From Nakamurella panacisegetis (lineage in GTDB: Bacteria > Actinomycetota > Actinomycetes > Mycobacteriales > Nakamurellaceae): a stretch of 64,000 nt of DNA. The stretch is from contig NZ_LT629710.1 in the NCBI RefSeq assembly GCF_900104535.1, forward strand, positions 2,108,001 to 2,172,000, read 5' to 3'. Shown piece by piece: positions 38,229-53,995 of this stretch. The stretch's first letter is position 1. Each line of letters begins with the position of its first letter. Both the position numbers and the translations under genes were made by a program. Below the pieces are notes generated by a model. That model was not told where the DNA came from. It was given only the letters and a program-made list of their open reading frames with translations, and made no database searches.

Positions 38229-39172
38229 CCGCCGGTGCCGCCGCCCCGCCGGTCGACGCCCGACCGGCGGGGCGAGAGCCGCGTCCGAAGGCCCGGCGCA
38301 GCGGATCGTCCGGCTCGGTCACCTGGATGGTGTTGCCGGCGCTGGCCGTCTTCCTCGCGTTCGCCATCGTTCCGTTGTTCGGTGTCCTCGGCCTGAGCTT
38401 CACCCAGTGGGACGGGATCGGCGCCATCCACGCCGCCGGCCTCGACAGTTGGAAGGCCGCGCTGCAGGACCCCGGTCTGCCGCACGCGCTCATGGTCACC
38501 TTCCTGATCATGATCCTGTCCTGGGCCGTGCAGACCCCGGCCAGCATCCTGATCGGCGTGTTCCTGGCCGGACGGCAGAAGTATCGGGCCGCACTGGCCG
38601 TCGCCTACTTCGTGCCCGTCCTGTTGAGCTCTGCCGCCATCGCCGTGACGTACAAGGCGTTGCTGGATCCCAACTTCGGGCTCGGGGCCGGGCTGCACAT
38701 CGATTTCCTCTCGCAGGACTGGCTGGGCCAGAACACCCTGGCCGTCGGCGTGGTGATCTTCATCGTGTCCTGGCAGTTCATCCCGTTCCACTCGCTGATC
38801 TACCAAGGCGCGGTCCGGCAGATCCCGAAGACCATGTACGAGGCGTCGGCCATCGAGGGTGCGGGGCGGATCCGCCAGTTCTTCAGCATCACCCTCCCGC
38901 AGCTCAAGTACACGATCGTCACCTCGTCCACCCTGATGGTCGTCGGTTCGCTGACGTTCTTCGACCTGATCTACGTGCTCACCGCCGGCGGTCCGGGGGA
39001 CGCCACCCGGGTTCTGGCTCTTGACATGTACCAGACCGGCTTCCAGGCGAACCTGATGGGCCCGGCGAGTGCCATCGCCGTCATCCTGGTGCTGGTCGGC
39101 CTGGCCCTGGCTCTGCTGCTGCGCAAACTCGGCGGCGGCAATTCGACCGACAGTCAACTGGAAGGGGCCTGA
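38225..39172 (+). CDS. ABC sugar permease, MalF-like (locus 2)
   Basis: 315 residues with a 40-residue basic N-terminal tail and six helices, the first being WMVLPALAVFLAFAIVPLFGVL. The ATPase-docking loop is EASAIEGAGRIRQFFSITLP. TWMVLPALAVF and FTQWDGIG are typical of CUT1 importers. ATG 38225 overlaps the binding-protein stop. No ATPase gene is adjacent. Confidence 0.9.
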   Translation: MTAGAAAPPVDARPAGREPRPKARRSGSSGSVTWMVLPALAVFLAFAIVPLFGVLGLSFTQWDGIGAIHAAGLDSWKAALQDPGLPHALMVTFLIMILSWAVQTPASILIGVFLAGRQKYRAALAVAYFVPVLLSSAAIAVTYKALLDPNFGLGAGLHIDFLSQDWLGQNTLAVGVVIFIVSWQFIPFHSLIYQGAVRQIPKTMYEASAIEGAGRIRQFFSITLPQLKYTIVTSSTLMVVGSLTFFDLIYVLTAGGPGDATRVLALDMYQTGFQANLMGPASAIAVILVLVGLALALLLRKLGGGNSTDSQLEGA

Positions 39173-39173
39173 G

Positions 39174-40061
39174 GTGGCCACCACGGTGATCGCGAAGCCG
39201 GACGAACCACGCGCGTCGGCGAAACCGAACCGCAACCGCGGAAAGTTGTTGCATCTCAACTGGTTGGGAGGCATCTTCGGTTGGCTCTGGCTGCTCATCG
39301 TGCTGATCCCCATCTACTGGATCGTGATCACGAGCTTCAAGACGCAGTCGAACTACTACGCGAGCAACCCGTTGGTCCCGCCGTCATCCCTGACGTTCTC
39401 CAACTACAAGCTCGTCATCGAATCGGACTTCCTGCGGTACTTCGCCAACAGCGTCATCGTGACGGCGGGAACGATCATCCCCGCGGTCATCATCTCGTTC
39501 ATGGCGGCATTCGCCATCGTCCGGGGCAGCGGTTGGTTCCTGAAGTCCGTCAACGGCCTGTTCCTGATGGGGTTGGCCATCCCCCTGCAGGCGGTGATCA
39601 TCCCGATCTACCTGATCATCATCAAACTGAAGCTGTACGACAGTCTGCTGGCGATGATCCTGCCGTCCATCGCTTTCGCCATTCCGCTGTCGGTGCTGGT
39701 GCTGGCGAACTTCATCCGTGATGTGCCCAAGGAATTGTTCGAGTCGATGCGGGTGGACGGAGCCAGCGAGTGGGTGACGCTGTGGCGGCTGGCCGCCCCC
39801 ATGACGCGGCCGGCCCTGGTCACGGTGTCGATCTACAACGGGCTGGCCGTCTGGAACGGCTTCCTGCTCCCCCTGATCCTGACCCAGAGCCCGGACAAAC
39901 GCACGTTGCCATTGGCGCTGTGGACCTTTCAGGGTCAGTACGGCGTCAACGTCCCGGCCGTTCTGGCCTCGGTGGTGCTGACCACTCTGCCGATCGTCAT
40001 CCTGTACGCGGTGGGCCGGCGGCAGCTGCTCAGCGGGTTGACGGCAGGCTTCAGCAAATGA
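39174..40061 (+). CDS. ABC sugar permease, MalG-like (locus 2)
   Basis: 295 residues, six helices: WLWLLIVLIPIYWIVITSF, NSVIVTAGTIIPAVIISFMAAFA, LLAMILPSIAFAIPLSVLVLA and others. The EAA-type loop is ESMRVDGASEWVTLWRLAAP. GTG 39174 follows GAAGGGG and lies one base after the preceding stop. Pairs with the MalF-like protein. Confidence 0.9.
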   Translation: MATTVIAKPDEPRASAKPNRNRGKLLHLNWLGGIFGWLWLLIVLIPIYWIVITSFKTQSNYYASNPLVPPSSLTFSNYKLVIESDFLRYFANSVIVTAGTIIPAVIISFMAAFAIVRGSGWFLKSVNGLFLMGLAIPLQAVIIPIYLIIIKLKLYDSLLAMILPSIAFAIPLSVLVLANFIRDVPKELFESMRVDGASEWVTLWRLAAPMTRPALVTVSIYNGLAVWNGFLLPLILTQSPDKRTLPLALWTFQGQYGVNVPAVLASVVLTTLPIVILYAVGRRQLLSGLTAGFSK

Positions 40062-40087
40062 TCGCAACGTGATGTGGAGACGAAGTA

Positions 40088-40792
40088 ATGCCTGAGAACA
40101 ACCGAAAATCGGCGCTGGTGGTCCGGGGTGGATGGGACGGCCACCAGCCGGTGGAGGCCACCGACCTGTTCATCCCGTACCTGAGGGAGAACGGGTACGA
40201 CGTCCGGATCGAGGAATCGCCGAAGATCTACGCCGACGCGGCCTACATGGCCGGCGTCGATCTGATCCTGCAGTGCGTGACCATGTCGACGATCGAACCG
40301 GAGGAGCTGGCCGGCCTGCAGACGGCGATCCGGGCCGGGACGGGGCTGGCCGGTTGGCACGGCGGCATCGCCGATTCCTACCGGAACAGCTCTGACTACC
40401 TGCACCTGATCGGCGGCCAGTTCGCCTGTCACCCTGGCAAGCACCCGGACGAGCTCATCGGCGAGCAGTCGGACAACTATCGGCCCTACACGATCAACAT
40501 GCTCCCGGCCGCGGCCGAGCATCCGATCACGGCCGGCATCGGCGATTTCGACCTGCTCACCGAGCAGTACTGGGTACTGGCCGATTCCTATCTGGACGTG
40601 CTGGCCACCACGACGCAGGCCGTGCGGCCCTGGGACCCGTGGACCCGGCCGGTCGTGTCGCCGGCCATCTGGACCCGGCAGTGGGGGAGCGGACGGATCT
40701 TCGTCACCACCGCCGGCCATCGGGTGGAGATCCTGCAGGACCCGAACGTGAAGACGATCATCGAGAGAGGACTGTTGTGGGCGAGCCGCTGA
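40088..40792 (+). CDS. ThuA-like domain protein
   Basis: 234 residues of the ThuA family, a class I glutamine-amidotransferase-like fold. Seen: SALVVRGGWDGHQP at the start, VDLILQCVTMSTIEPEE, GLAGWHGGIADSY and GRIFVTTAGHR. In Sinorhizobium ThuA works with the Gfo/Idh protein ThuB in catabolism of trehalose-like disaccharides through 3-keto sugars. Here too a Gfo/Idh gene follows directly and overlaps by 16 bases, so a comparable glycoside-oxidation step is likely. The substrate is unknown. Confidence 0.82.
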   Translation: MPENNRKSALVVRGGWDGHQPVEATDLFIPYLRENGYDVRIEESPKIYADAAYMAGVDLILQCVTMSTIEPEELAGLQTAIRAGTGLAGWHGGIADSYRNSSDYLHLIGGQFACHPGKHPDELIGEQSDNYRPYTINMLPAAAEHPITAGIGDFDLLTEQYWVLADSYLDVLATTTQAVRPWDPWTRPVVSPAIWTRQWGSGRIFVTTAGHRVEILQDPNVKTIIERGLLWASR

Positions 40793-41862
40793 ACGTCGGG
40801 ATCGTGGGGCTGGGAACGATCAGCAAGCAGTACTTCGACACGTTCGCCACCCTGGACTCGGTCCGGATCACGGCGGTGGCCGACCTCGACGCTGAGTTGA
40901 CCGGTCGTGTCGCCGAAGGGCTGGGGGCAGCGGCCTGCACGGTCCCGGAACTGGTGACTCGCGACGACGTGGACCTGGTGCTGAACCTGACCATCCCGGT
41001 GGCTCACCGCGATGTGGCGCTGGCGGCGATCGCCGGCGGCAAGGGGGTGTACGGGGAGAAGCCGCTAGCTCTGGACACGGCTCAGGCCCGAGAGGTGCTG
41101 ACCGCGGCGGACAACGCCGGAGTCGTGGTCGGCTGCGCCCCGGACACCGTCCTCGGCACCGGGACGCAGACCGCCCGCAAAGCGATCGACGACGGTCTGA
41201 TCGGCCGCCCGATCGCGGCCAGCGCCACCATGTTGGTCCCCGGGCACGAACGGTGGCACCCCAATCCGGATTTCTACTACCAGCCCGGGGGCGGCCCGCT
41301 CCTGGACATGGGGCCGTACTACCTGAGCGCCCTGATCACGCTGCTCGGCCCGGTCGCCGCGGTGACCGGGGCGGCCAGCCGTACCCGGTCGACCCGGACC
41401 ATCGGATCCGGACCGCGTACCGGCCAGAGCATCCCGGTCGCCACCGACACGCACATCACCGCCATCCTGACCCACGAGTCCGGTGCCCTCTCGACCGTGA
41501 TGATGAGCTTCGACGTGGTGGCCACCCGCACCGCGAACATCGAGATCCACGGTGAGCTGGGCAGTCTCGTGGTGCCAGACCCGAACCGGTTCGCCGGTGA
41601 CGTGCAGCTGCAGACGCTGGAGAGCAAGGAGTGGGAGGTGCTGCCGGTGTCGGCCGGCTACCTGAATGCGGGTCGCGGCATCGGGATCGCGGATCTGGCC
41701 GCCACCCCGGACGGTGAGGTACCGCGGGCCGGCGGTGCGCTGGCCTTCCACGTGCTCGACGTGATGGAGGCCGTACTGGCGTCGTCGGTGTCGGGGGCCG
41801 CCCGGACCATCGGCAGCACCGTCGCTCGTCCGTCGGCCGTGCCGTTGCAGACGATGTGGTGA
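40777..41862 (+). CDS. Gfo/Idh/MocA family oxidoreductase
   Basis: 361 residues. N-terminal Rossmann domain: LNVGIVGLGTISKQYFDTF, with YGEKPLALD, where the EKP lysine is catalytic. The C-terminal domain contains YQPGGGPLLDMGPYYL, with the usual GGGxLxDxGxH-like helix. Probably oxidises or reduces C3 of a hexose or glycoside with NAD(P). Start GTG 40777 has GAGAGAGGA upstream and lies within the end of the ThuA gene, so the two are coupled. Likely the functional counterpart of ThuB. Confidence 0.87.
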   Translation: MGEPLNVGIVGLGTISKQYFDTFATLDSVRITAVADLDAELTGRVAEGLGAAACTVPELVTRDDVDLVLNLTIPVAHRDVALAAIAGGKGVYGEKPLALDTAQAREVLTAADNAGVVVGCAPDTVLGTGTQTARKAIDDGLIGRPIAASATMLVPGHERWHPNPDFYYQPGGGPLLDMGPYYLSALITLLGPVAAVTGAASRTRSTRTIGSGPRTGQSIPVATDTHITAILTHESGALSTVMMSFDVVATRTANIEIHGELGSLVVPDPNRFAGDVQLQTLESKEWEVLPVSAGYLNAGRGIGIADLAATPDGEVPRAGGALAFHVLDVMEAVLASSVSGAARTIGSTVARPSAVPLQTMW

Positions 41863-41976
41863 TCAGCCTCGACCGATGACCGGGGCGGCGGGACGACTTG
41901 GATACGCTGGGCGGCAACTCCGGGGCCCCAGAGGATCGTCATCGTCGGGCGAGCAGTTCGCTACCCGATCACGGAA

Positions 41977-43479
41977 GTGGACCAGATCGAGATCATGAGC
42001 ACCGCCTGCGTTCTGCTCGGCATCGACCTCGGCACCAGCTCGGTCAAGGTCGTGCTGACCGACCGGGTCGGCACGGTGCTGGCCCAGGCATCGGCCGAGT
42101 ACCCGGTCGACCGTCCGCATCCAGGTTGGGCCGAGACCGACCCCGAGGCCTGGTGGCGGGCCATCCGCACCGCCGTGGCCCAGGTGCTCGCCGCGGGGCC
42201 CGGCGTCGCCCCGGCCGGCGTCGGATTGTCCGGTCAGATGCACGGTGTTGTCGTGTGTCTGGCCGATGCGACGCCGGCCCGTCCGGCCGTGCTGTGGGCC
42301 GATTCGCGGGCCGAGGACGAACTCGACGTCTACCGGGCGCTGCCCGCTGCCGCCCGGGCCCGGTTGGCCAACCCGTTGAGCCCTGGCATGGCCGGCCCGG
42401 AGCTCGCGTGGCTGCATCGGCACGAACCACGGGTGATGGCCGGTGCGCGGTGGGCCCTGCAGCCCAAGGACTGGATCCGGGCCCGGCTGACCGGCGAGTT
42501 CGCGGCCGAGCCGAGCGACGCCTGCGCGACCCTGCTGTATGACGTGACCGCTCGGACCTGGGACGCCGAAGTGGTTGCGGCGCTGGGGATCCGACCTGAG
42601 CTGTTACCCGAGCTGCTGCCGTTCTCCGGAGTCGCGGCCGGGTCGCTGCTGCCCTCGGTCGCGGCCGAGCTCGGCCTGCCGCCGGGCATTCCGGTGTCGG
42701 CCGGCGCCGGTGACTCGGCGGCGGCCGCTCTGGGCTCGGGCGTGCTGGACCCGGGCACGGTGCAGCTGACCATCGGCACCGGGGTCCAGATCGTCACCGT
42801 GGTGGAGGCGCCCACCCTGGAGACGGTCGGGCACCGGCACGATCCGGTGACTCACCTGTACCGCAGCGCCACCCGGGACGGCTGGTACGCCATGGCAGCC
42901 GGACTGACCGGTGGCCAGTCCCTGGACTGGGTCCGGCGACTGCTGGGCGCCGAATGGGCCGAGTTGTACGCCGCGGCCGACCGCGGTCCCCAGGACGGCG
43001 ACCCGATCTTCCTGCCGCATCTGGTCGGTGAGCGAACCCCTTACCTGGACACCCATCTGCGGGGGTCGTGGACGGGGCTGGATGCGCGGCACGACCGCAC
43101 GGCCCTGCTGTACTCGGCACTGGAAGGGGTGGCGTTCGCCGCGGCCGACGGACTGGACGCGCTGCCGGGCGTGCCGGACGCCGACCGTCATCTCCGGTTG
43201 GCCGGCGGCGGGACCGTGTCCCCGGGGTGGCGGGCGCTGCTGGCGAACGCGTTGAACGCCCACCTGCACGCCGTCGACGTTCCCGGCGCGTCGGCCCGGG
43301 GGGCGGGGCTGCTGGCCGCCCAGGCGGCTGGATGGATCACCGACGCGGAGCTGGTCGAGGTGGCCCGGCCGCACACCACGCTGATCGCGTCGCCCGGCCC
43401 GGGCGCCGACGCGCTCCGGGATCGGCGCCGGCTCTATCTCGACACGCTGCGGGCGTTGCGCCCGTTGCGATCCCGCTGA
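41977..43479 (+). CDS. xylB: Xylulokinase (FGGY kinase)
   Basis: Phosphorylates D-xylulose, feeding it to the pentose phosphate pathway. 500 residues from GTG 41977, or 494 from ATG 41995. Seen: LLGIDLGTSSVKVVLTD (phosphate loop), VGLSGQMHGVV (substrate site characteristic of XylB), QPKDWIRARLTGE, SAGAGDSAAAALGSGV with the catalytic Asp, and LAGGGTVSPGW in the FGGY C-domain. It follows the Gfo/Idh gene by 114 bases and may have its own promoter. No xylose isomerase (xylA) is in the window. It converges with the ABM gene. Confidence 0.88.
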   Translation: MDQIEIMSTACVLLGIDLGTSSVKVVLTDRVGTVLAQASAEYPVDRPHPGWAETDPEAWWRAIRTAVAQVLAAGPGVAPAGVGLSGQMHGVVVCLADATPARPAVLWADSRAEDELDVYRALPAAARARLANPLSPGMAGPELAWLHRHEPRVMAGARWALQPKDWIRARLTGEFAAEPSDACATLLYDVTARTWDAEVVAALGIRPELLPELLPFSGVAAGSLLPSVAAELGLPPGIPVSAGAGDSAAAALGSGVLDPGTVQLTIGTGVQIVTVVEAPTLETVGHRHDPVTHLYRSATRDGWYAMAAGLTGGQSLDWVRRLLGAEWAELYAAADRGPQDGDPIFLPHLVGERTPYLDTHLRGSWTGLDARHDRTALLYSALEGVAFAAADGLDALPGVPDADRHLRLAGGGTVSPGWRALLANALNAHLHAVDVPGASARGAGLLAAQAAGWITDAELVEVARPHTTLIASPGPGADALRDRRRLYLDTLRALRPLRSR

Positions 43480-43487
43480 GACTTCGA

Positions 43488-43814
43488 CTACGCCGTCACG
43501 GCCAGCTCGCCGAGCTCGGACCAGCCGTCCTGGTCGATGGAGAAGCTGATGATCTTCGGGGTGCGCACCAGATGCGGTGGGAGCGTCTCCTGCGCCTTCT
43601 TGAAGTGCGCGGAGTTGACGTGGGCGCCGCCGGCGTCACCGTCGGAGAACGCCTCGACCAGCACGTATTCGTTGCTGTCCTCCACGCTGCGGGACCAGTC
43701 GAACCACAGACAACCGGGTTCGGCGCGGGTGTCGCGGGTGAAGTCGGCGACGATGTCCGTCCAACTGTCGGCGAACTCCGGCTTCACCGGGAACTTCGCG
43801 GTGATGAAGATCAT
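43488..43814 (-). CDS. Antibiotic biosynthesis monooxygenase (ABM) domain protein
   Basis: 108 residues forming one ABM ferredoxin-like domain: MIFITAKFPVKPEFADSW at the N-terminus, EPGCLWFDWSRSVEDSNEYVLVEAF and AHFKKAQETLPPHL. Such dimeric proteins include cofactor-free quinol monooxygenases. GAAAGGA before ATG 43814 decides the start; the frame to 43844 adds ten residues with no signal. It is last in the ADH/DUF59/amidohydrolase row, separated from ADH by a long hairpin. Confidence 0.8.
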   Translation of the reverse strand: MIFITAKFPVKPEFADSWTDIVADFTRDTRAEPGCLWFDWSRSVEDSNEYVLVEAFSDGDAGGAHVNSAHFKKAQETLPPHLVRTPKIISFSIDQDGWSELGELAVTA

Positions 43815-43832
43815 GAGGGTCCTTTCGGGCCG

Positions 43833-43866
43833 CGGTGGGGACACCCGGCTTGGGGTGTCCCCACCG
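43833..43866. terminator. Long perfect hairpin between ADH and ABM genes
   Basis: CGGTGGGGACACCC and GGGTGTCCCCACCG form a 14-base perfect stem around a 5-6-base loop, between the ADH stop (43881) and the ABM start (43814), both on the minus strand. There is no T-run. It could end most ADH transcription or stabilise the upstream mRNA so that ABM is made at a lower level. Confidence 0.65.
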
Positions 43867-43880
43867 TAGTCGGGGCTCGG

Positions 43881-44906
43881 TCAGGGGATGAGGATGGCCC
43901 GGCCGCGCACCTTGCCGGCGCCGAGATCGTCCAACGCCACCTGGAAGTTCTCCAGCGGGTACTTGACCGTGTGCAGCTGGACCCGCTTCTGTGCGGCCAG
44001 GGCCATCAGTTCGACCAGGTCGTTGTAGGAGCCGACCAGGTTCCCGACGAAGCTGATCTCGGTCGAGATGACGTCGATGGTCGGGATGACGATGTTCTCG
44101 CCGTAGCCGACGACGTGGTACTCGCCGGCCCGCCGCAGCATCTTCACACCTTCGCCGGTCGATCCGCCCTCACCGACGAAGTCGATGACCGCTTCGGCGC
44201 CGTGTCCGCCGGTCAACTCCAGCACCTGCTCGATGTGGGTGCCGTCGGCCACGATCCCGTGGTCGGCCCCGATGGAGACGGCCAGGGCCACCGCGTCCGG
44301 GTTGCGGTCCAGCACGATCAGCTCGGCGGCCGAGATGGCTTTGAGGACCTGGATTCCGATGTGCCCGAGACCGCCGGCGCCGATGACCAGACAGCGGTCA
44401 CCCGGGTGCAGTTTCCGGGCCGCCTTGGCGGCCGCGTGGTAGGCCGTGAGCCCGGCGTCGGCCAGCGCCGCGACATCCGACGGCTCTAGGGAGTCGTCGA
44501 TCCGGACCACGCTGCGGGCCGACGTCTTGAGGTAGTCGGCGTACCCGCCGGACGTGTCGATGCCGGGGAACTGCGAGTTCTCGCAGTGCACGTCGTCACC
44601 GAACCGGCAGGCCCGGCACAGCCCGCAGGTGATCAGCGGATGCATGATCACCTTGTCGCCCTCGGCGACATTGCTGACGGCGCTGCCCACCGCGTGGACC
44701 CAGCCGGCGTTCTCGTGACCGATCGTGTACGGCAGGGCGACGCCGGACTTCTCCGCCCACTGACCTTCCAGGATGTGGATGTCGGTCCGGCACACCCCGG
44801 CTCCCCCGACCTTGACGATGACGTCGTGCGGACCGGTGATCTCCGGTACGGGAACGTCCTTCATCTCCAGGTTCTGGTGGTAGCCCACCACCTGCACTGC
44901 TCTCAT
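43881..44906 (-). CDS. NAD-dependent zinc alcohol dehydrogenase (MDR)
   Basis: 341 residues, medium-chain dehydrogenase. Catalytic zinc ligands lie in GVCRTDIH and GHENAG; the structural zinc site is complete (CGLCRACRFGDDVHC, four Cys). The Rossmann motif is VIGAGGLGHIGIQ. It resembles the alcohol dehydrogenases next to propane/acetone monooxygenase operons in Rhodococcus, Gordonia and Mycobacterium, where they oxidise the alcohol product. Here it directly follows the DUF59 gene (one base apart) and the amidohydrolase gene, two other members of that neighbourhood. Confidence 0.88.
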   Translation of the reverse strand: MRAVQVVGYHQNLEMKDVPVPEITGPHDVIVKVGGAGVCRTDIHILEGQWAEKSGVALPYTIGHENAGWVHAVGSAVSNVAEGDKVIMHPLITCGLCRACRFGDDVHCENSQFPGIDTSGGYADYLKTSARSVVRIDDSLEPSDVAALADAGLTAYHAAAKAARKLHPGDRCLVIGAGGLGHIGIQVLKAISAAELIVLDRNPDAVALAVSIGADHGIVADGTHIEQVLELTGGHGAEAVIDFVGEGGSTGEGVKMLRRAGEYHVVGYGENIVIPTIDVISTEISFVGNLVGSYNDLVELMALAAQKRVQLHTVKYPLENFQVALDDLGAGKVRGRAILIP

Positions 44907-44907
44907 G

Positions 44908-45687
44908 TCAGATCACCTTCAGTGGGATCAGCGGATGGTTGTCGTGGACCCGCGGCGCCTGGTCGCGCCCGGAATCCGGGTAGCGGGTGACCAGTAGCCC
45001 GCGGCAGAAGTGGGCGTTCCCGTCGACCGAGATGCGGGTGGACCGGGCCCGGCGCAGCCGCAGCGCCGCCTGGTCCGGGGAACAGGCGCGGCCCTCGTCG
45101 TCGACGAACACCAGCGCATTCCGATCATCGGGCAGTCCGATCGCCGCGCGCCGCTTGCGCAGTGCGTCGGTGAACGGGCCGACCGGCAGGTCGGCCAGGG
45201 TCAGAGCACACAGATCGGCCTCGACCAGGCGAGGGTCGGCCCGGAGCACCGAGGTCAGGCAGCGTTCCATCGCGGCGGTGTGGGCCTTGCGGCGGAACGT
45301 GTCCCGCAGCTCGTCCAGGCTCGCCTCCGCTTCGTGACCGAAGGTGCCGAGGTAGCCGGCGTCGGCGGCCAGGCCGGCATTGATCAGGTGGGAGTCGTGG
45401 TGGTCGTCGAGCTGCACGACCACCCGACTGACCCACTCCAGCCCGCTGATTGCGTCCTTCGCGTCGGAGGCCATCAGGTAGGCGAAGTTGGGCGAGCAGA
45501 ACGACGTCGGCAGCCGCAGGTGCACGACCACCGTCCCGTTGTCCGGGCCTTCCGGCACGACCACCGACCGGACGAAGCCGAGGTCGGTGATCGGCTCGTC
45601 CAGTTCCGGGTCCATCACCGTGCTCAGGGCGGCGGTGATCGCCTCCAGCCGGGCGCGCTGCCGGAGCGGGGTCAGCACGGCCGTCAT
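44908..45687 (-). CDS. DUF59/MIP18-domain metal-sulfur assembly-like protein
   Basis: 259 residues. The first 100 are a DUF59 domain (ITAALSTVMDPELDEPITDLGFVRSVVV, LPTSFCSPNFAYLMASDAK). The remaining 160 residues are specific to the subtype found next to diiron alkane/propane monooxygenases, with RRKAHTAAMERCL and the Cys-containing EADLCALTLADLPVG. DUF59 proteins help assemble metal centres, so this subtype is thought to help mature the hydroxylase. Its ATG overlaps the amidohydrolase stop. Confidence 0.82.
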   Translation of the reverse strand: MTAVLTPLRQRARLEAITAALSTVMDPELDEPITDLGFVRSVVVPEGPDNGTVVVHLRLPTSFCSPNFAYLMASDAKDAISGLEWVSRVVVQLDDHHDSHLINAGLAADAGYLGTFGHEAEASLDELRDTFRRKAHTAAMERCLTSVLRADPRLVEADLCALTLADLPVGPFTDALRKRRAAIGLPDDRNALVFVDDEGRACSPDQAALRLRRARSTRISVDGNAHFCRGLLVTRYPDSGRDQAPRVHDNHPLIPLKVI

Positions 45688-46712
45688 GCCGATGCTCCGA
45701 CCGCGACCTCGGCTTCCGGCTCGGCCGGGATCTGGACCTCCAGGCCCGCCGGCACCTCGAGGTCGTAGAGCCGGGCGGCGTTGAGGCCGAGGATCTTCTT
45801 CTTCGCGTCGGTGGTCAGGGCCGGGTATTCGGTCATGTCGGCCGGGATCTGGAAATCGACGAACGACTCGATGAGCCATTTCGGGGTCCAGATGGCGTAG
45901 TCGGACGAGAAAAGGATCTTGTCCTCGCCGACCCAGTACAGGAGCTCCCCCATGATCTGTGCGAAATAGCGCGGCCGGGTGTGGATGAACGGCATGGCGA
46001 CGGCCAGGCCGGCGTAGACGTTCGGCTCCTGCGTGGCGATCCAGCAGAAATCCTCGAGGCGGGGGAGACCGCAGTGCTCGACGATGAAATTCAGGTCGGT
46101 GAAATCGGTGGCCACCTTGTCGATGTCGGCCACGTCGAACGCGTCGCGGTCCAGCGGGCGGATGGTCGGGCCCTTGTGCACGTGGATGTTCTTGATGCCC
46201 AGTTCCTGGCAGGCCTCGAGGTAGCGGTAGGCCCACGGATCGTCCATCTTCCAGCCGCGGGACTCCCCGTGCCACTCGGCGGTGTACAGCTTGACGCCCT
46301 TGAGGCCGAACCGGGCAGCATCCTCGCGCAGCTGGGTCAGCCCCTGCTCGCCGTTGCGCGGATCGAAGAAGTGGTTGTAGGTCAACCGGTCCGGGTTCGC
46401 CTGGGACAGTTCGAAGGCCTCGGTGGTCTGCCCGAAGCCGTTCTTGTAGAACTCGATCAGATAGGCCGGCTGGAAGATCGCATGGTCGACGTAACCGTCG
46501 GTGAACAGATCCTTCATCAGGCGCTCGCCGCCCTGGTAGAGGTAGTCCTCGTAGGGCCAGACCTCCGACGCCGGGCTGAGGTTGCGGTGGTAGTCGTAGA
46601 AGCAGTCGATGAACTGCTTGCCGTGGATGTTCCGGTGATTCGCCTCCCGACCGTCCCAGAGCGCGATGTGGCTGTCCACGATGAAGTAGTCCTGGCCGTC
46701 CTTGCTGTACAT
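45684..46712 (-). CDS. Amidohydrolase-2 family protein of the Prm/Mim neighbourhood
   Basis: 342 residues. It starts SKDGQDYFIVDSHIALWDG and contains the strongly conserved block HGKQFIDCFYDYHRNLSP, GVKLYTAEWHGESRG, NIHVHKGPTIRPLDRDAFDV, FIVEHCGLPRLEDFCW and FSSDYAIWTPKW. The first metal motif is DSHIA rather than the usual DxHxH. As I recall, the proteins encoded beside PrmABCD/MimABCD share this feature; their role is unproven and may be in hydroxylase maturation. AAGGAGG lies just upstream of ATG 46712, ruling out the longer frame to 46793. Confidence 0.85.
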   Translation of the reverse strand: MYSKDGQDYFIVDSHIALWDGREANHRNIHGKQFIDCFYDYHRNLSPASEVWPYEDYLYQGGERLMKDLFTDGYVDHAIFQPAYLIEFYKNGFGQTTEAFELSQANPDRLTYNHFFDPRNGEQGLTQLREDAARFGLKGVKLYTAEWHGESRGWKMDDPWAYRYLEACQELGIKNIHVHKGPTIRPLDRDAFDVADIDKVATDFTDLNFIVEHCGLPRLEDFCWIATQEPNVYAGLAVAMPFIHTRPRYFAQIMGELLYWVGEDKILFSSDYAIWTPKWLIESFVDFQIPADMTEYPALTTDAKKKILGLNAARLYDLEVPAGLEVQIPAEPEAEVAVGASA

Positions 46713-46758
46713 GAATCCTCCTTGAATCATCACGAGCACTGAGACGGACGGTAGGCAA

Positions 46759-46817
46759 TTCCGGTGATCCGGCGCACCTTTCCGGTGTCTCAATTTGAGA
46801 AGGTGGGGTTTCCGGTG
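46759..46817. promoter_or_regulatory. Repeats and palindrome in the regulator/amidohydrolase divergent region
   Basis: TTCCGGTG occurs three times in the same orientation at 46759, 46780 and 46810, spaced 21 and 30 bases, close to two and three helical turns. TCTCAA-T-TTGAGA at 46788-46800 is a perfect 13-base palindrome between the second and third copies. The array lies between the divergent amidohydrolase and regulator genes, a natural binding array for the AcoR/MimR-type activator and a second factor. Confidence 0.6.
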
Positions 46818-46897
46818 GCCACCCCACTTCGCCCGGCCGCGGCCGGAGGTCCGGAGTAGCGTGATTCACGGAACGAACCAACCTGGGCGGCTGCGAG

Positions 46898-48385
46898 GTG
46901 AGCGTGACCGATCATCGACAGGCGGCCGGTCCGGCCCAGTCCGGGCCCGGGCACCGTGGTGTGGCCGTCGCCTCCCGTCTGCGGGCGTCCTGGCAGCGGA
47001 GCGAGCACTACGGGGTCTCCCCGGAACACGTCCAGCCGGTGTTCACCGGCCCGCCCGACACGGGCTCCCTGCTCTACGAATGCGGATCGCAGGTCCTGCT
47101 GGGTTTGCATGCCACCCTGGCCAACGAACCGGTCAGTCTGATGATCGCCGACCGCGACGGGCTGGTGCTGACCCGCTTGTGCAACGATTCGGCGATAAAC
47201 TCGGCGCTGGACCGGGTGTACCTGGCCCGTGGATTCTCCTTCGCCGAGCGCCACGCGGGAACCAACGGTCTCGGGCTGGCCCTGGCCGACCGGGCGCCGA
47301 CGCTGGTCCGGGCGCGGGAACACTACTGCGCCGACCTGCAGGGCTACACGTGCGCCGCGGTGCCGGTGCTCGACCCGACGACCGGTGAGCTGGCCGGCAC
47401 GGTCAACCTGACCACGTGGGCCGATTCCCGTCCGGAACTCTTGCTCGCCCTGGCCCAGTCGGCGGCCAGCAACACCGCCGCGCTGATGTTGCTCCGCGCC
47501 ACCGGGCGCAGGCCACGCCCGACCCCCCGTGGCCAGGTGGCGCGGGTCTGGCCCGGCCGGCTACCGGCCGGCGCCGGCGATCCCTGCGGGTCTGCGCAGT
47601 GGCTCGGGGCGATGGCCCAGGCCGAGCGGGCCATGTCCGGTGGTCAGGTGGTGGCGGCGATCGGCGAACCCGGAGCCGGGAAGACCACGCTCTTGTCCGC
47701 GGCCCGGCGGGCCGCGGCCGGGCCGGAACGGCTGCTCGTGGTTCGCCCGCCGGAGGCCGGGCCGCTGGACGGCTGGCTGGACCTGTGGACCCCGGAGCTC
47801 CGCCACGACGACACGTTCGTCCTGATCACCGGAGCCGAGACGCTGCCGGCCTGGACGGCCGGCGAGTTGGCCGGAGCCCTCGGAGCGGCGGCCTCGCGTC
47901 CGGGCGGCCCCGGGTTCGCCTTCGCCGCCACGGAGTTCGGCCCCATGCCCGAACCGCTCAAGGATCTGGTCGGCACGGTGGTCGAGGCGCCGGCGCTGCG
48001 CCGGCGGCCCGACGACGTGCTGCCGTTGGCCCAGCACTTCGCCCGCCGCGAACGTCACCGCGAGGTGGTGTTCACCCCGATGGCATCGAAGGCGTTGGTC
48101 GCCTTCGACTGGCCGGGGAACGTGCGTCAGCTCGAGCGGGTGGTGATCCATGCCTCGGCCCGGACCGACATCGTCGACTCCCAGCACCTGCCGCCCGAGG
48201 TGTTCAGCGGAAGCGCGCGCCCGCTCAGCCGGCTGGACAACCTGAAACGGGACGAGATCATCCGTTGCCTGACCGAACCCGGCGCCACGGTCGCCGGGGC
48301 CGCCGCCCAGCTCGGCATGAGCCGGGCCACCGTCTACCGCAAGATCGCGCAGTACGGGATCAAGCTGCCGCGAGGTTCCGCCTGA
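46898..48385 (+). CDS. AcoR/MimR-type regulator (GAF, AAA-like, Fis HTH)
   Basis: 495 residues. N-terminal part with RLRASWQRSEHYGVSPEHVQP and a GAF sensor domain (LIADRDGLVLTRL, GTNGLGLAL, HYCADLQGYTCAAVPV, TVNLTTWA), then a shortened AAA region with AAIGEPGAGKTTLL (Walker A), DWPGNVRQLERVV, and a Fis helix-turn-helix at the end (GAAAQLGMSRATVYRKIAQYG). The sigma-54-contacting GAFTGA loop is absent and the Walker B stretch is degenerate, as expected in actinobacteria without sigma-54. MimR-type relatives activate propane/acetone monooxygenase operons. It diverges from the amidohydrolase operon. Confidence 0.85.
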   Translation: MSVTDHRQAAGPAQSGPGHRGVAVASRLRASWQRSEHYGVSPEHVQPVFTGPPDTGSLLYECGSQVLLGLHATLANEPVSLMIADRDGLVLTRLCNDSAINSALDRVYLARGFSFAERHAGTNGLGLALADRAPTLVRAREHYCADLQGYTCAAVPVLDPTTGELAGTVNLTTWADSRPELLLALAQSAASNTAALMLLRATGRRPRPTPRGQVARVWPGRLPAGAGDPCGSAQWLGAMAQAERAMSGGQVVAAIGEPGAGKTTLLSAARRAAAGPERLLVVRPPEAGPLDGWLDLWTPELRHDDTFVLITGAETLPAWTAGELAGALGAAASRPGGPGFAFAATEFGPMPEPLKDLVGTVVEAPALRRRPDDVLPLAQHFARRERHREVVFTPMASKALVAFDWPGNVRQLERVVIHASARTDIVDSQHLPPEVFSGSARPLSRLDNLKRDEIIRCLTEPGATVAGAAAQLGMSRATVYRKIAQYGIKLPRGSA

Positions 48386-48391
48386 ACGGGC

Positions 48392-48577
48392 CTAGCCGAA
48401 CAGCCAGATCAGGGGCAGGAAGAACACCGCGCACGCGACGATGACCAGCAGGAAACTCAGCGACCACAGCTGGAGCATCTGGCGCACGGGGATTCCGGGC
48501 CCCTGGAACCGGGCCGTGTACGCCTCGATCCACGCCTGCCACCGGGGCTGACCGCCGGCGCTCGGATGCTCGGTCAT
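48392..48577 (-). CDS. Small single-span membrane protein
   Basis: 61 residues: a polar N-terminal half (TEHPSAGGQPRWQAWIEAYT), then one membrane helix, WSLSFLLVIVACAVFFLPLIWLFG. ATG 48577 is preceded by GTGAGG. It lies 57 bases after the flavoprotein gene at 48635, so it may be the last gene of the polyol operon. No family recognised. Confidence 0.6.
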   Translation of the reverse strand: MTEHPSAGGQPRWQAWIEAYTARFQGPGIPVRQMLQLWSLSFLLVIVACAVFFLPLIWLFG

Positions 48578-48634
48578 GCCTCACGCTAACACCGCCCGTG
48601 CCGTGCGGCACCGGGGTCGGACGGCCCCGTCCGG

Positions 48635-49882
48635 CTACTCGCCGAGGCCGATGGTCACGTCCCCCGCCGCGAGGTCGACCTCGGTCAGGATGCTCGATGG
48701 CACCCGGAACACCCGGCCCGGTGCGGCCGGCCACCACAGCCGTTTCCGGGCGACGATCCGGCCGTTCTGCCGGATCACCACCAGGGGGAAGGGCACGTAC
48801 CGATCGCTCCACACCAGCAGCCGTCCCCGGGGTGGTTCCGGATCGGACCCGCGGAGTACGCCCGGGCTGGCCCACCTCAACGGAGCCGCGGCGCGCAGCC
48901 GGGTCCGGTCGGCGGCGGGACGGGAGCCGCTCAGGTGGGCCAGGACGTGCTCGGCCACCGCGGCCCCGTCCAGGGCGGCCACATCGGCCGTGTCGACCGG
49001 GTGCACGAGGTTGCCGATGGCGAACACGCCGGGGCGACTGGTCCGCAGGGCCGGGTCCACCAGCGGTCCGCGGCTGGCCCGGTCGAGGTCGAGTCCGCCC
49101 GCGCGGGCCAACTCGTTGTCGGGGATCCAGTCGCCGGTGAGCACCACCGTGTCGCAGGCGACGGTGCGGCGCTCGCCGGTGTCGATGTTCTCGATCTCGA
49201 CCCCGGTGACCTGCCCGCGACCGATGATGCGGCTGATCCGGGTCCGGGTGGCCACCGTGGTGCGCAGCCAGGGGACGCCGATCCGGGAGAAAAGCCAGTA
49301 GGCGTCGGGCTTGGGGTATTCGGTGGTCATCAGGACGGTGCGGCAGCCGGCCTGCCGGAGGGTCATCGCGGCCGAGAAGCTGACCAGCTCCGATCCGACG
49401 ACGACGGCCCGTCGCCCCACCGATCCGTGCTTGAGGTGCACGACGTTCTGCAGGTGACCGGTGGTGTACACGCCGCCGGCCCGGTCGCCCGGGATCAGCC
49501 GGGCGGCCCGCGGCCGTTCCCGGGCTCCGGTGGCCAGTACAACGGCCTCGGCGGTGACGGTGATGCGGCCGCCCGGTGTGGTGACGGACAGGCTCAGATC
49601 GCCGGCCCAGTCGGTCACCGTCGCGTTCTCCATGACGATCGCGCCGGCCCGCAACGCCGTGTCCCGCAGGGCCTTGGCGTAGCGCGGTCCGCTCAGGAAG
49701 CGGTGCCGGTCGCGCAGTCCGTAGCCGGGATGGTCGCTGTGCCGGGGAATACCTCCGGCCACCGATTCGCGTTCCAGTACGAGTACCTGACCGTTCACCC
49801 GGGGGGCGAGTTCGGCGGCGGCGCGCAGTCCGGCCGGGCCGCCGCCGACGATCAGCACCGTCGGGCTCAGGGCGGTGGTCAT
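48635..49882 (-). CDS. NAD(P)/FAD-dependent oxidoreductase (GlpB-like partner)
   Basis: 415 residues of the pyridine nucleotide-disulfide type: LIVGGGPAGLRAAAELAP (FAD), VVLATGARERPRAARLIPG, VVVGSELVSFSAAMTL (NAD(P) domain) and GVFAIGNLVHPVDTADVAALDG. The C-terminal 80 residues after the fold (RLLVWSDRYVPFPLVVIRQN) may substitute for the separate DUF1667 protein that often follows such genes. It is coupled by ATGA to the GlpA-like gene. Together they likely form a sugar- or polyol-phosphate dehydrogenase complex. Confidence 0.8.
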   Translation of the reverse strand: MTTALSPTVLIVGGGPAGLRAAAELAPRVNGQVLVLERESVAGGIPRHSDHPGYGLRDRHRFLSGPRYAKALRDTALRAGAIVMENATVTDWAGDLSLSVTTPGGRITVTAEAVVLATGARERPRAARLIPGDRAGGVYTTGHLQNVVHLKHGSVGRRAVVVGSELVSFSAAMTLRQAGCRTVLMTTEYPKPDAYWLFSRIGVPWLRTTVATRTRISRIIGRGQVTGVEIENIDTGERRTVACDTVVLTGDWIPDNELARAGGLDLDRASRGPLVDPALRTSRPGVFAIGNLVHPVDTADVAALDGAAVAEHVLAHLSGSRPAADRTRLRAAAPLRWASPGVLRGSDPEPPRGRLLVWSDRYVPFPLVVIRQNGRIVARKRLWWPAAPGRVFRVPSSILTEVDLAAGDVTIGLGE

Positions 49883-51279
49883 GTCCGGTCCCGGCCCGAG
49901 GTCCGCAGGAGTTCGTCGATCTCGGCGCCACAGAAGAAGCCCTGGCAGCGGCCGTTCTGGGCGCGGGTCCGACGACGCAGTCCGTTCAGGCCGCGTGGCG
50001 GGATCGGCGTGCGCATCGTGTCCCGGATCTCGCCGGCGGTGACCCGCTCGCAGAAGCACACGATCCGCCCGTAGGCCGGGTCGGCGGCGATCCGGTCCGC
50101 GTCCTGGTACGGCCGGGTGAAGGCCTCGCCGATGTTCGGCATCCGCGGCGGGGCGGGCAGGTCGGCCCGGGCCGCCGCGGTCATGTGGCCGCCGGTTCGC
50201 AGCGCCTCGTCCACGTACTCGCCGATGGCCAGGCTCGCGGTCAGGCCGGTCGAGCGGATGCCGCCGACCAGCACGTACCGCTGGGCGTCATCGATCTCGA
50301 TGAGGTAGTCCGGGTGGCTGCCGGCCGCGCGCAGGCCGGCGTAGCTCGCCGTCACCTCCTCCTGGAGGAGTTGCGGCATCAGCTGCCGGCCCTTGCCGAG
50401 CAGGAACTCCAGACCGGCCTCGGACGTGGCGGTGTCGCCCCGGTCGGTCAGATCCTCCGAGGTCGGGCCGAGCATCACGTTGCCGTAGATGGTCGGGCTG
50501 ATCAGAACCCCCTTCCCGCGCGAGGTGGGCACCGGCAGGACGATCTTGTCGGCCAGCGCGCGGGACTGCTTGTCGTACACCAGGAGTTCGCCCCGGCGCG
50601 GGGTGATGGTGAAGCGGTGGTGACCGAACATCGCATCGATGACGTCACCGCCGAGACCGGCCGCATTGATCACCCACCGGGCCCGCACGTCGCCGCCGGT
50701 GGTCCGCAGGGTGGTGGCGTCGTCGGCGACCTCGACCGCGATGACCCGGTGCTCGAGCAGCAGGGCGGCGCCGCGGCCGACCGCTTCGGTGGCCAGCGCC
50801 AGATTGGTGGTCCAGGTGCAGGTGATCGACTCGTCCGGAACGGACAGGCCGCCGAGCGCCCCGGTCCCCAGATGCGGTAGCTGCCGGTAGATCTCGTCCG
50901 CACTGAGCAGGACGCAGTGGTGGTAGCCGTTCTGCTCCGCCTTGGTCCGCAGGCCGGGCAGGGCGTCGAGTTGCTCGGCGTCCCAGGCCACCAGAATGGC
51001 GCCGGTGCGTTCCACCGGAATGCCGGTGGCCCGCGCGTACTCCGACAGCAGGTGGTAGCCGCGGCGCACCAGCCGTGACTCGAGAGTGCCCGGTGTTGCG
51101 TCGAACCCGGTGTGCAGGATCGCGGTGTTCGCCTTGCTGGTGCCGTCCCCGACGTCGTCGCGGGCCTCGATGATCACCGTCGTGAGTTCGTATCCGGAGA
51201 GTTGCCGGGCGATGGCCGCCCCGACCAGGCCGGCCCCGATGACGGCGACGTCGAACGGGGCACCCTCGTCGGGCGTCAT
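49879..51279 (-). CDS. FAD-dependent glycerol-3-phosphate dehydrogenase-like protein with BFD-type Fe-S domain
   Basis: 466 residues. DAO fold: FDVAVIGAGLVGAAIARQLSG (FAD), KANTAILHTGFDATPGTLES, VINAAGLGGDVIDAMFG, and GGIRSTGLTASLAIGEYV. A C-terminal bacterioferritin-ferredoxin-like domain carries CFCERVTAGEI and GRCQGFFC, four Cys for a [2Fe-2S] cluster. This arrangement is that of alternative anaerobic-type G3P dehydrogenases that work with a GlpB-like flavoprotein. ATG 51279 overlaps the kinase stop; the frame to 51339 is not needed. Substrate depends on what the unusual upstream kinase phosphorylates. Confidence 0.85.
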   Translation of the reverse strand: MTPDEGAPFDVAVIGAGLVGAAIARQLSGYELTTVIIEARDDVGDGTSKANTAILHTGFDATPGTLESRLVRRGYHLLSEYARATGIPVERTGAILVAWDAEQLDALPGLRTKAEQNGYHHCVLLSADEIYRQLPHLGTGALGGLSVPDESITCTWTTNLALATEAVGRGAALLLEHRVIAVEVADDATTLRTTGGDVRARWVINAAGLGGDVIDAMFGHHRFTITPRRGELLVYDKQSRALADKIVLPVPTSRGKGVLISPTIYGNVMLGPTSEDLTDRGDTATSEAGLEFLLGKGRQLMPQLLQEEVTASYAGLRAAGSHPDYLIEIDDAQRYVLVGGIRSTGLTASLAIGEYVDEALRTGGHMTAAARADLPAPPRMPNIGEAFTRPYQDADRIAADPAYGRIVCFCERVTAGEIRDTMRTPIPPRGLNGLRRRTRAQNGRCQGFFCGAEIDELLRTSGRDRT

Positions 51280-52688
51280 CGGGACACCGCGGCGGACATC
51301 CAGCGGGACCGGAAGTCGGTCGCGCGGGCGGCGCTCCACTGTGGTTCGTAGGTGGTGACGGGCTGCCAGGCGATCACCGCGTCGGGCAGCTCGAGCGTCG
51401 GGTCCATGGCCATCCGAGCCAACGCGGCGGCGCCCAGCGGGGTGGCGTGGGGGGACGGGTAGATGTCGATCGGGATCTGCATCAGGTCGGCCACCGCCTG
51501 CATCAGGACCCGGCTGCGGGTCAGGCCGCCGTCGGCCCGCAGGCGCTGCAGCGGCACCGCGGCATCCTGGCCGACCAGCCGCCCGAGTTCGGCCACCTGA
51601 GCGGCAATGCCCTGCAGCACAGCCAGGACGATGTGCTCACGCCCGGTCGAGAGCGTCATGCCGGTCAGAGTGGCGGTGGCATCCGGTCGCCACCAGGGCG
51701 CGGCCAGGCCGGCGAAGGCCGGAACGCAGAGCACTCCGCCGGCGTCCGGCGCGGCCGCCCCGTCCAACTCGGCGGCCGAGCCGATCAGGCCGAGCTGTTC
51801 GAGCCACCGCACGGCCGATGCCGCGGTGTACACCTGGCCGTCGAAGCAGTAGGTCGGGTCGCCCTTGATACTCCACGCGACCGACGCGGCCAGGCCGGCC
51901 GCCGACCGGGTGGCGGTGCGGCCGGTGTTGGCCAGCAGGAAGGCGCCGGTGCCGAAGGTGCACTTGACGTCGCCTGCGGTCAGGCAGCTCTCGGCGAGCA
52001 GGGCCGCCTGCTGGTCGACGACCAGACCACCGACCGGCGTCCGTCGCCCGAAAGCGTCGGTGTGGCCGGCGATCTCGTCATTGCCCAGGATCCGCGGCCG
52101 GGCCTCGGACTCCAGGTCGAACAACTCGAGCAGGTCGTCGTCCCAGTCGGTGGTGTCCAGATCGGTGACCAGCGAGCGGCTGGCGGTGGACACGTCGGTG
52201 ACGAATTCGCCGGTCAGTTCGTGCAACAGCCAGGTGTCGGAGGTGGTGACCACCCCGGCGGCGGTGACGTTCCGCCGCAGCCAGGCCTGTTTCGGGGCGG
52301 AGAAGTAGGGGTCGAGCACCAGGCCGGTCCGGGCCGCGATGGTGGCCGCCTGCCGGGACAGGCCGGCGCAGACACTGTCGGCCCGGCGGTCCTGCCAGAC
52401 GATCATCGGCGACAACGGGGCTCCGGTGACCGGGTCCCAGGCCAGGACCGTCTCTCCCTGGTTGGCCAGGGTGACCACGTCGACCGGCGTCGGCGACTGC
52501 GCGATCGCCGCCCGCCCGGCGGTCAGCACCGAATCCAGCAGGGCCTGCGGATCCTGTTCGACCCCGCCACCGGGTAGGTATCGAGGCCGGATGGTCACCT
52601 CGGCCAGGCCCAGGATCTCGTCGTCCGGCCCGACCACGATCGCCTTCGTACCCGACGTGCCCTGGTCGATCGCCAGCACCGTCGTCAT
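51276..52688 (-). CDS. GlpK-like FGGY kinase with altered glycerol motif
   Basis: 470 residues, nearest in layout to glycerol kinase: TVLAIDQGTSGTKAIVVG, GGLVVDQQAALLAESC with the catalytic Asp, TFGTGAFLLANTG and RADGGLTRSRVLMQAVADL. In glycerol kinases the segment NQRETT binds glycerol through its Arg; here it is NQGETV (76-81), with Gly in place of Arg, and GAPYWD becomes AAPWWR. So glycerol may not be the substrate, and erythritol or another polyol or ketose is possible. It overlaps the deoR and flavoprotein genes by four bases each. Confidence 0.82.
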   Translation of the reverse strand: MTTVLAIDQGTSGTKAIVVGPDDEILGLAEVTIRPRYLPGGGVEQDPQALLDSVLTAGRAAIAQSPTPVDVVTLANQGETVLAWDPVTGAPLSPMIVWQDRRADSVCAGLSRQAATIAARTGLVLDPYFSAPKQAWLRRNVTAAGVVTTSDTWLLHELTGEFVTDVSTASRSLVTDLDTTDWDDDLLELFDLESEARPRILGNDEIAGHTDAFGRRTPVGGLVVDQQAALLAESCLTAGDVKCTFGTGAFLLANTGRTATRSAAGLAASVAWSIKGDPTYCFDGQVYTAASAVRWLEQLGLIGSAAELDGAAAPDAGGVLCVPAFAGLAAPWWRPDATATLTGMTLSTGREHIVLAVLQGIAAQVAELGRLVGQDAAVPLQRLRADGGLTRSRVLMQAVADLMQIPIDIYPSPHATPLGAAALARMAMDPTLELPDAVIAWQPVTTYEPQWSAARATDFRSRWMSAAVSR

Positions 52689-53467
52689 CGGGTCGCACCT
52701 TCGGCCACGATCACTCGCCCGCCCCCGTCCTCGATGGCCGCACGGATGTCACCTGGCGGTTCCTCGTCGGTGATCAGCCCGGCCAGCCCGCGCAGGGCGA
52801 CCACGCGATGACGGGCGATCCGGCCCAGTTTGGTGGCGTCGGCCAGCACGAAGGCGGCGGCGGCGTTCCGGATGATCGTCCGGCGCACGGCCGCCTCGTC
52901 CAGGTGGTAGTCGGTCAGTCCGGCGTCGGCATGAACCCCGCCGGATCCGAGAAAGGCGACGTCGGAATAGAAGTCGGCGAAGAACTCGGCCGTCGAGCCG
53001 TTGGACAGGGCCAGGTCCCCCGGCCGCAGGCGGCCCCCGGAGACGAGCACCTCGGCATCCGGCCGATGGGACAGTTCGACCGCGGCGAGCAGCGAACAGG
53101 TGGCCACGGTGCCGTTGAAGGCGGCGGGGAGAGATCGGGCGACGGCCAGTGCCGTGGTGCCGACGTCGACGACCAGAGTGCCTCCGGGCGGGGCCAGCGC
53201 CGCGGCGGCCCGTCCGATCCGCTCCTTGGCCACCGCGGCCAGGCCGGTGCGGTCGACGAAGGCCGGTTCCTGCCCGGTGAGACTCGGCAGGCCGATCGCG
53301 GCGCCGCCGCGGATCCGGGTCAGAGCGCCCTGCTGTTCCAGCGTCACCAGATCGCGGCGGATGGTCTCGGCCGACACCTCGAGCTGGTGGGCCAGCTCCT
53401 CGGTGCTGGCCACCGTGGCTGCCCGCAGGCTCGACACGATGCGGGTATGGCGTTCGGCGACGAGCAC
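52685..53467 (-). CDS. DeoR/GlpR family repressor
   Basis: 260 residues. N-terminal winged helix: RHTRIVSSLRAATVASTEELAHQLEVSAETIRRDL, then the sugar-phosphate-sensing DeoRC domain (LVVDVGTTALAVARSLP, FLGSGGVHADAGLTDYH, LADATKLGR). Start GTG/ATG at 53467. First gene of the operon with the kinase and two flavoproteins, so it presumably represses them until a phosphorylated polyol accumulates. The gap of about 100 bases to the divergent arsR gene should hold its promoter. Confidence 0.9.
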   Translation of the reverse strand: MLVAERHTRIVSSLRAATVASTEELAHQLEVSAETIRRDLVTLEQQGALTRIRGGAAIGLPSLTGQEPAFVDRTGLAAVAKERIGRAAAALAPPGGTLVVDVGTTALAVARSLPAAFNGTVATCSLLAAVELSHRPDAEVLVSGGRLRPGDLALSNGSTAEFFADFYSDVAFLGSGGVHADAGLTDYHLDEAAVRRTIIRNAAAAFVLADATKLGRIARHRVVALRGLAGLITDEEPPGDIRAAIEDGGGRVIVAEGATR

Positions 53468-53571
53468 GTCAGCCGAGCCGAACCGATGGCCGTGGAATCA
53501 TGTGGGGAAGTATGGAGTTCTGTGGCGCGGTGGGTCAAGGGCGGGCGACCTTCTGATGCCAGGATGGGTCC

Positions 53572-53943: not shown

Positions 53944-53977
53944 CCGATGACTGCCCGGCGTTCCCGGCGGACGAAAT

Positions 53978-53995
53978 AACACATGCGCATCTGTT
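53978..53995. promoter_or_regulatory. Candidate ArsR operator before the NiCoT gene
   Basis: AACACATGCGCATCTGTT is palindromic at 16 of 18 positions: AACA and TGTT arms around a perfect ATGCGCAT core. TACATT at 54015-54020 fits a -10 element, placing the operator over the -35 region of the permease gene. It lies between the ArsR gene and the permease. Confidence 0.6.

Follow-up and report, generated by a model that had tools for sequence, protein, structure and literature searches.

A set of accessory genes of the propane/acetone monooxygenase (Prm/Mim) type, found in a 64,000-nucleotide stretch of the Nakamurella panacisegetis genome (the window; positions 2,108,001–2,172,000 of a single 5,013,870-bp contig, genome 99.99% complete), probably forms one Prm/Mim regulon with a hydroxylase unit 259 kb away, split in two, with the window unit supplying the downstream steps. 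We favor this reading because both loci carry a rare, conserved palindrome, TCTCA-N3-TGAGA. An earlier note, made from the window sequence alone, had described an ABM-domain protein, a Zn-dependent alcohol dehydrogenase (Zn-ADH), a long-form DUF59 protein, an amidohydrolase-2 (AH) and a divergent GAF/Fis regulator at 43488–48385. These gene calls are right, all five genes have open frames, and the Prm/Mim accessory set is complete: AH, long DUF59 and Adh1-type ADH in order, with the GAF/Fis regulator and ABM. The order of divergent regulator, AH, DUF59 and ADH recurs in most of the 80 loci retrieved by AH, so the window arrangement is not due to chance, and its AH falls within the AH diversity of Prm operons; the genes are the Prm/Mim companions that the note took them for.

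The palindrome emerged from a screen of 82 promoters lying between regulator and AH (window included) and 33 between regulator and PrmA, a few of them duplicate loci (e.g. L039/L105 and L051/L106). It is present in 71 and 31 of these, respectively, while the best palindrome in one mononucleotide shuffle per set reached 4 and 3. Across 139 loci (2.58 Mb) there are 133 operator sites, 115 of them in the two promoter classes, with 0 for the reversed pattern; of the remaining 18, several stand in front of ADH where the genes are arranged differently (L115, L144, L121 and L143). In the whole 5.01-Mb genome the operator occurs four times (reversed-pattern control, 0): at the AH promoter, at the PrmA promoter, 5′ of a gene for a 181-residue protein after GroEL, and 5′ of fur–katG. 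The two regulators have near-identical HTH ends (SRATVYRKI and SRASIYRKI), a segment that we take to be the recognition helix. The 181-residue protein (L003:15701-16246; genome C1:2419701-2420246), which has the operator just upstream, gave no Pfam match, and homologues lie near Prm operons in L129, L011, L013, L014 and L132. The fourth site, TCTCACAGTGAGA (L160:8247; genome C1:1992247), stands upstream of the Fur-family gene and katG, and could place catalase-peroxidase in the Prm regulon; catalase-peroxidase is one of the proteins listed as most abundant when Actinomycetospora grows on acetone or 2-hydroxyisobutyric acid, in the part of that study available to us (PMC7176365). A conserved palindrome at prmA promoters has been described, its letters not given in the text passages seen, and may be identical to TCTCA-N3-TGAGA (PMC4428276). 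A literature search combining the operator half-site with propane monooxygenase found nothing.

The note had asked whether the hydroxylase was lost or is encoded elsewhere, and the genome decides for the latter. PF02332 matches twice, both times 259 kb from the window unit, within a hydroxylase unit at 2.410–2.419 Mb (inside stretch L003, 2,404,001–2,424,000). This locus has the full set: a second GAF/Fis-type regulator, PrmA (alpha, with two ExxH motifs, EVRH and ESRH, presumably the iron ligands), a 2Fe-2S/FAD/NAD ferredoxin-reductase, the beta subunit, an MmoB/DmpM coupling protein and GroEL, one of three Cpn60 matches in the genome. Neither the PF02332 nor the Cpn60 matches fall inside the window, and no reductase or coupling protein was seen on reading the open reading frames (ORFs) of 38000–54000, no family search of the window having been made for either; the accessory set, 259 kb away, is not physically linked to prmABCD/groEL. 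Nor does the hydroxylase locus have its own copies of the window genes, an outcome that the note had named as a refutation: AH matches once in the whole genome, and the long DUF59 is matched in full once, another match (33% identity) being confined to residues 11-108, the DUF59 domain. A recent split confined to one genome can be ruled out, as the sister species G445 shares it and keeps the operator at both loci, the PrmA-side copy being identical letter for letter. Just upstream of the hydroxylase locus (L003:2517-6290) lie an aldehyde dehydrogenase (best match betaine-aldehyde type, under cut-off), an IclR-like regulator (assigned by eye) and PurU.

The hydroxylase operon also retains a piece of the accessory set. 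Integrated operons run A-B-C-D-AH-DUF59-ADH-GroEL (L010, L011, L013, L014 and L043), and in L003 an 83-residue ORF with AAGGAGG on its 5′ side stands between PrmD and GroEL (L003:13120-13371). Its frame is 51% identical to residues 116–184 of operon-type DUF59 (E=6e-13), and the ORF scores 33.2 bits against the DUF59 profile, whereas 2000 shuffles, 500 per remnant for four remnants, reach 11.2 at most. M. komossense (L095), strain AT1 (L096) and G274 (L127) have the three further remnants; in all four genomes the C-terminal part of DUF59 alone survives between PrmD and GroEL, the DUF59 domain proper having been lost. The operon would therefore once have had its own DUF59 copy. Because no remnant match was seen in G445, whose PrmA is 98% identical, the fragment is probably a decaying scar and less likely a functional small domain. 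The deletion scar that the note had suggested looking for thus exists, albeit in the hydroxylase locus rather than in the window.

For the AH phylogeny the tree was thinned to 59 of 112 AH rows, with 5 outgroup rows added, and in it the window AH pairs with that of G445 (support 100) within a 21-row set (SH-aLRT 97) containing 9 operon-borne and 11 stand-alone copies. It lies within Prm-operon AH diversity in this unrooted tree and so, for the AH, not outside the Prm/Mim clade, the other refutation that the note had foreseen. Because operon-borne and stand-alone copies mix, the state changing 5 times in the full tree and 6 times after thinning, the module has left or joined hydroxylase operons repeatedly. 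Rooting by distant homologues was dropped on account of very long branches, and the tree gives neither operon-to-solo nor the reverse as the direction.

An AH scan of genome contigs returned at least 569 relatives; the best 80 loci, a choice that favors close relatives, are mostly stand-alone units of divergent regulator, AH, DUF59 and ADH, with or without ABM. PF02332 was searched in the genomes of 50 of these loci (49 genomes, the selection omitting metagenome-assembled genomes, operon-type loci and some others), matching in 17 and not in 32, and 27 of the 32 keep the operator. Two of the loci, L030 and L032, are alike and may be from one species. Geodermatophilus obscurus and Arthrobacter koreensis are examples of species that carry the unit with no PF02332 match. 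In an even sample of 397 genomes of the window's order, with both proteins called at E<=1e-100, PrmA occurs in 44 and AH in 110, and AH is present in 40/44 PrmA-positive versus 70/353 PrmA-negative genomes (Fisher p=6.6e-21); in the window's own genus PrmA is in 3/17 and AH in the same 3. Among the PrmA-positive genomes missing AH, G528 has it cut by a contig end, G565 has a fragment at a contig end, and G486 (550 contigs) has only a 32% match. A class-wide draw of 394 genomes, in which AH was called at E<=1e-60 and distant homologues are included, gave PrmA in 8 and AH in 32; 7/8 PrmA-positive genomes have AH, and the single exception is 63% complete. For the 40 genomes of the order with both, AH is within 8 kb of PrmA in 31, at 10 kb in one, on the same contig at >=93 kb in five (the window genome among them) and on another contig in three, although in one of these (G598) a piece of AH also stands at the end of a PrmA contig. 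Conversely, 66 of the 70 genomes with AH and without PrmA have no PF02332 match, the remaining four carrying hydroxylase pieces. Draft gaps or a loose first look could hide some hydroxylases, though hardly 66/70, and the unit therefore has a role that does not need PrmA. The note's third suggestion, that the accessory proteins serve something beyond this hydroxylase, accordingly holds across the family.

Structural comparison bears on what that role may be. The AH model (pLDDT 81, pTM 0.86) matches 5-carboxyvanillate and dihydroxybenzoate decarboxylases, LigJ hydratase and ACMSD, at 11–19% identity and query TM-scores of 0.49–0.61 over 50 listed matches; a PDB sequence search found no close relative and one match (E=9.6e-5). 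Residues H18, K144, H182, H216 and D274 (numbered as in the 345-residue query) are kept in every aligned in-group row, save one gap at H18. Judging from the ACMSD family, we take the first His, H182, H216, D274 and the second His of the HxH motif to be metal ligands. At position 20, the second His, the window protein has Ala, as does almost all of its larger clade, operon-borne and stand-alone alike; deeper branches and L099 and L100 have His. The long DUF59 conserves FCSPNFAYL and, at its C-terminal end, GNAHFCRGLL; its model (pLDDT 89) resembles DUF59-domain proteins and CIAO2B in Foldseek (best E 3.4e-3), with no match at E<=0.001. In L143, from G674, a genome without AH, DUF59 lacks the conserved cysteine of FCSPNFAYL, a single case that fits DUF59 serving AH. 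The proteome table of Actinomycetospora, in which AH and Adh1 are abundant on acetone or 2-hydroxyisobutyric acid, gives, as far as seen, AH 3.2%, Adh1 6.1% and MimG 4.0% (PMC7176365). Such an AH share would suit a catabolic enzyme, although GroEL is as high.

Taken together, these data suggest a scheme in which the hydroxylase unit (PrmABCD, GroEL and its own regulator) and the window unit (AH, DUF59, ADH, ABM and its own regulator) would be co-expressed, both regulators presumably binding the same TCTCA-N3-TGAGA operator in response to an inducer. By analogy with known Prm/Mim enzymes, the hydroxylase would oxidize a small alkane or ketone, and ADH the resulting alcohol (2-propanol to acetone, or acetol to methylglyoxal). 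AH may then carry out a metal-dependent hydration, decarboxylation or C–C cleavage on a C3/C4 intermediate, and DUF59 may be dedicated to AH, assisting its assembly or delivering its metal; the role we favor for AH, served by DUF59, is a downstream C3 alcohol/ketone step. The operon's own copy of at least DUF59 would have decayed to the remnant, and in hydroxylase-less relatives the window-type unit may work on C3/C4 alcohols or ketones from other sources. A bolder form of the same idea, put forward tentatively and at less than even chances, is that AH–DUF59–ADH is an autonomous, as yet unnamed actinobacterial module for the catabolism of C3/C4 alcohols and ketols, with the Prm/Mim hydroxylase as an upstream add-on that it can do without; AH would provide a new non-oxidative C–C or hydration step, and DUF59 would build the metal site of AH, not that of the hydroxylase.

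The earlier note had linked AH and DUF59 to hydroxylase maturation, and they could be maturation factors now acting in trans, leaving ADH as the sole metabolic enzyme of the unit. That PrmA nearly implies AH (40/44), that the operator is common to both loci, and that the long DUF59 weakly resembles assembly proteins such as CIAO2B all agree with this, as do three hydroxylase operons without an orthologous AH that carry a divergent homologue (23-25% identity) after GroEL (L101:14662-15774, L103:6691-7779 and L140:3997-5046; PF04909 checked for one). Maturation is nonetheless hard to reconcile with the 32/49 module-bearing and 66/70 AH-positive, PrmA-negative genomes that have no PF02332 match, with an AH fold and metal-ligand-type residues that are those of a catalytic enzyme, and with a complete genome that has PrmABCD and no AH. 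Moreover, the maturation factor named in citing papers, as far as these were seen, is GroEL-like MimG, whose co-expression was required for active MimABCD in a heterologous host. The hydroxylase-free genomes and the decarboxylase/hydratase-type fold argue that AH and DUF59 are not merely maturation factors, and we consider the maturation reading unlikely. Less likely still is a reading of the unit as a separate catabolic module, of glycerol/dihydroxyacetone, acetoin or propanediol type, descended from Prm companions and with no tie to the hydroxylase here. The same hydroxylase-free genomes would suit it, single relatives adjoin DhaK/DhaL (L080), GldA and a MIP channel (L082) or acetoin reductase (L089), and the window unit itself neighbors FGGY kinases, a GlpA-like oxidoreductase and a DeoR regulator. 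However, such neighbors vary between genomes, the rare operator is shared with the hydroxylase locus of the same genome, AH matches PrmA exactly in its own genus (3/17), and no other AH or long DUF59 exists in the genome even though the operon bears a DUF59 scar.

Several observations also weigh against one split regulon. The operator is missing from 11/82 regulator–AH and 2/33 regulator–PrmA promoters, its fourth genomic copy may be a site of the Fur type, and having an operator in common is no proof that two units serve one pathway. It is also missing from L116, L117, L119 and L120, where the trio is linked to formate dehydrogenase. The association of PrmA with AH counts genomes rather than independent events, and AH is not strictly obligatory, since G674, complete in one contig, has PrmABCD, GroEL, ADH and DUF59 and only a 27%-identity match to AH. 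The 66/70 hydroxylase-free genomes count here as well, and the window AH has Ala where 16 of 55 operon-borne or stand-alone rows have the second His of HxH.

Features of the window unit and its putative operator (window positions).
Feature	Position	Strand	Basis
ABM-domain protein, 108 residues, last gene of unit	43488..43814	-	PF03992, E=3e-20
Zn-dependent medium-chain alcohol dehydrogenase (Zn-ADH), Adh1-like, 341 residues	43881..44906	-	PF08240 + PF00107
Long-form DUF59 (FeS_assembly_P) protein, 259 residues	44908..45687	-	PF01883, E=2.7e-14, plus C-terminal extension
Amidohydrolase-2 (AH), 342 residues, ACMSD/dihydroxybenzoate-decarboxylase-type fold	45684..46712	-	PF04909, E=3.9e-52
Palindromic putative operator TCTCA-N3-TGAGA, between AH and regulator	46788..46800	.	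common to hydroxylase locus
GAF/AAA-lid/Fis-HTH regulator, divergent from AH	46898..48385	+	domain matches

The AH frame starts at the first ATG, from 46712, the preceding codon (46715-46713) being TTC; AAGGAGG stands immediately 5′ of the gene, which overlaps DUF59 by 4 bp. The best solved match of Zn-ADH is Aeropyrum ADH (1h2b), followed by Rhodococcus ruber ADH-A types (2xaa). The top NCBIfam match of the regulator is DhaR, at a score far under cut-off, and we take the protein to be AcoR-like and MimR-like. An adjoining polyol-type cluster (48635-53467) encodes an FAD oxidoreductase, a GlpA-like DAO/BFD protein, an FGGY kinase and a DeoR regulator. Neighbor clustering of 119 loci with the window and hydroxylase stretches found ABM in 30 of the 121. 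Beyond the trio, regulators, ABM and hydroxylase genes, no general extra partner of stand-alone modules emerged, the largest other families being SDR (15 loci) and a small membrane protein, presumably DUF1097-like, just after ADH in 10 stand-alone loci (e.g. L029, L048 and L066). Formate dehydrogenase was likewise ruled out as a general partner. It lies beside the trio only in L116, L117, L119 and L120, where IclR and an FdhF/YdeP oxidoreductase come after ADH–AH–DUF59 and FdhD is divergent; this form goes with a formate-dehydrogenase-like enzyme, and these genomes have no PrmA at E<=1e-100, PF02332 not having been searched there. L040 has a further formate dehydrogenase match at 4.1 kb, its AH being at 10.0 kb, and another is in L107, where AH is missing. 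Three 1.3-Mb genomes (L109, L110 and L111; G194, G233 and G413) keep a 42%-identity AH homologue, with no DUF59 found beside it. The gene caller used for relatives' loci missed starts in A+T-rich loci.

Already known in this picture are the split layout of strain AT1, the gene content of the operons and a conserved prmA-promoter palindrome. The prmABCD/mimABCD operons of Gordonia TY-5, Rhodococcus RHA1 and BCP1, and M. smegmatis/goodii (group 5 soluble diiron monooxygenases) have the same companion genes; for BCP1 and relatives, the text seen lists a metal-dependent hydrolase, a metal-sulfur cluster protein, ADH and GroEL in the operon and, in several strains, a Fis regulator and ABM (PMC4428276). 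Here, in contrast, 259 kb separate the trio, which has a regulator and an operator of its own, from the hydroxylase, whose operon still holds a DUF59 remnant. The split layout is shared by Mycobacterium sp. AT1, a strain that grows on propane: the passages seen place an amidohydrolase, a gene of unknown function and ADH elsewhere on the chromosome and state only GroEL immediately downstream of the monooxygenase (PMC6849523). In our data the AT1 operon has a different ADH, and a remnant of DUF59 stands between its PrmD and GroEL; neither the remnant nor the shared operator nor the hydroxylase-free distribution is part of that description as far as it was available. Rhodococcus yunnanensis NBRC 103083 is another named strain with the split layout, whereas Rhodococcus jostii RHA1 has the operon layout. 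Compared with the amidohydrolase-2 decarboxylases and hydratases (5-carboxyvanillate and 2,6-dihydroxybenzoate decarboxylases, LigJ and ACMSD), AH keeps the TIM-barrel, H182, H216 and D274, but differs in its low identity and in the Ala at the second His. Literature searches found nothing on AH, DUF59 and ADH together, nor the stand-alone module as a widespread unit, the operator at both loci, or the scar.

The literature passages seen give no tested function for the AH and DUF59 of propane/acetone monooxygenase operons. Split genomes, together with hydroxylase-free genomes that carry the unit and the operator, make the maturation and downstream-catabolic hypotheses separable, and TCTCA-N3-TGAGA offers a sequence tag for finding the whole regulon, possibly including the catalase-peroxidase gene. 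Because many relatives have the helper genes where no hydroxylase was found, these genes probably have a job of their own.

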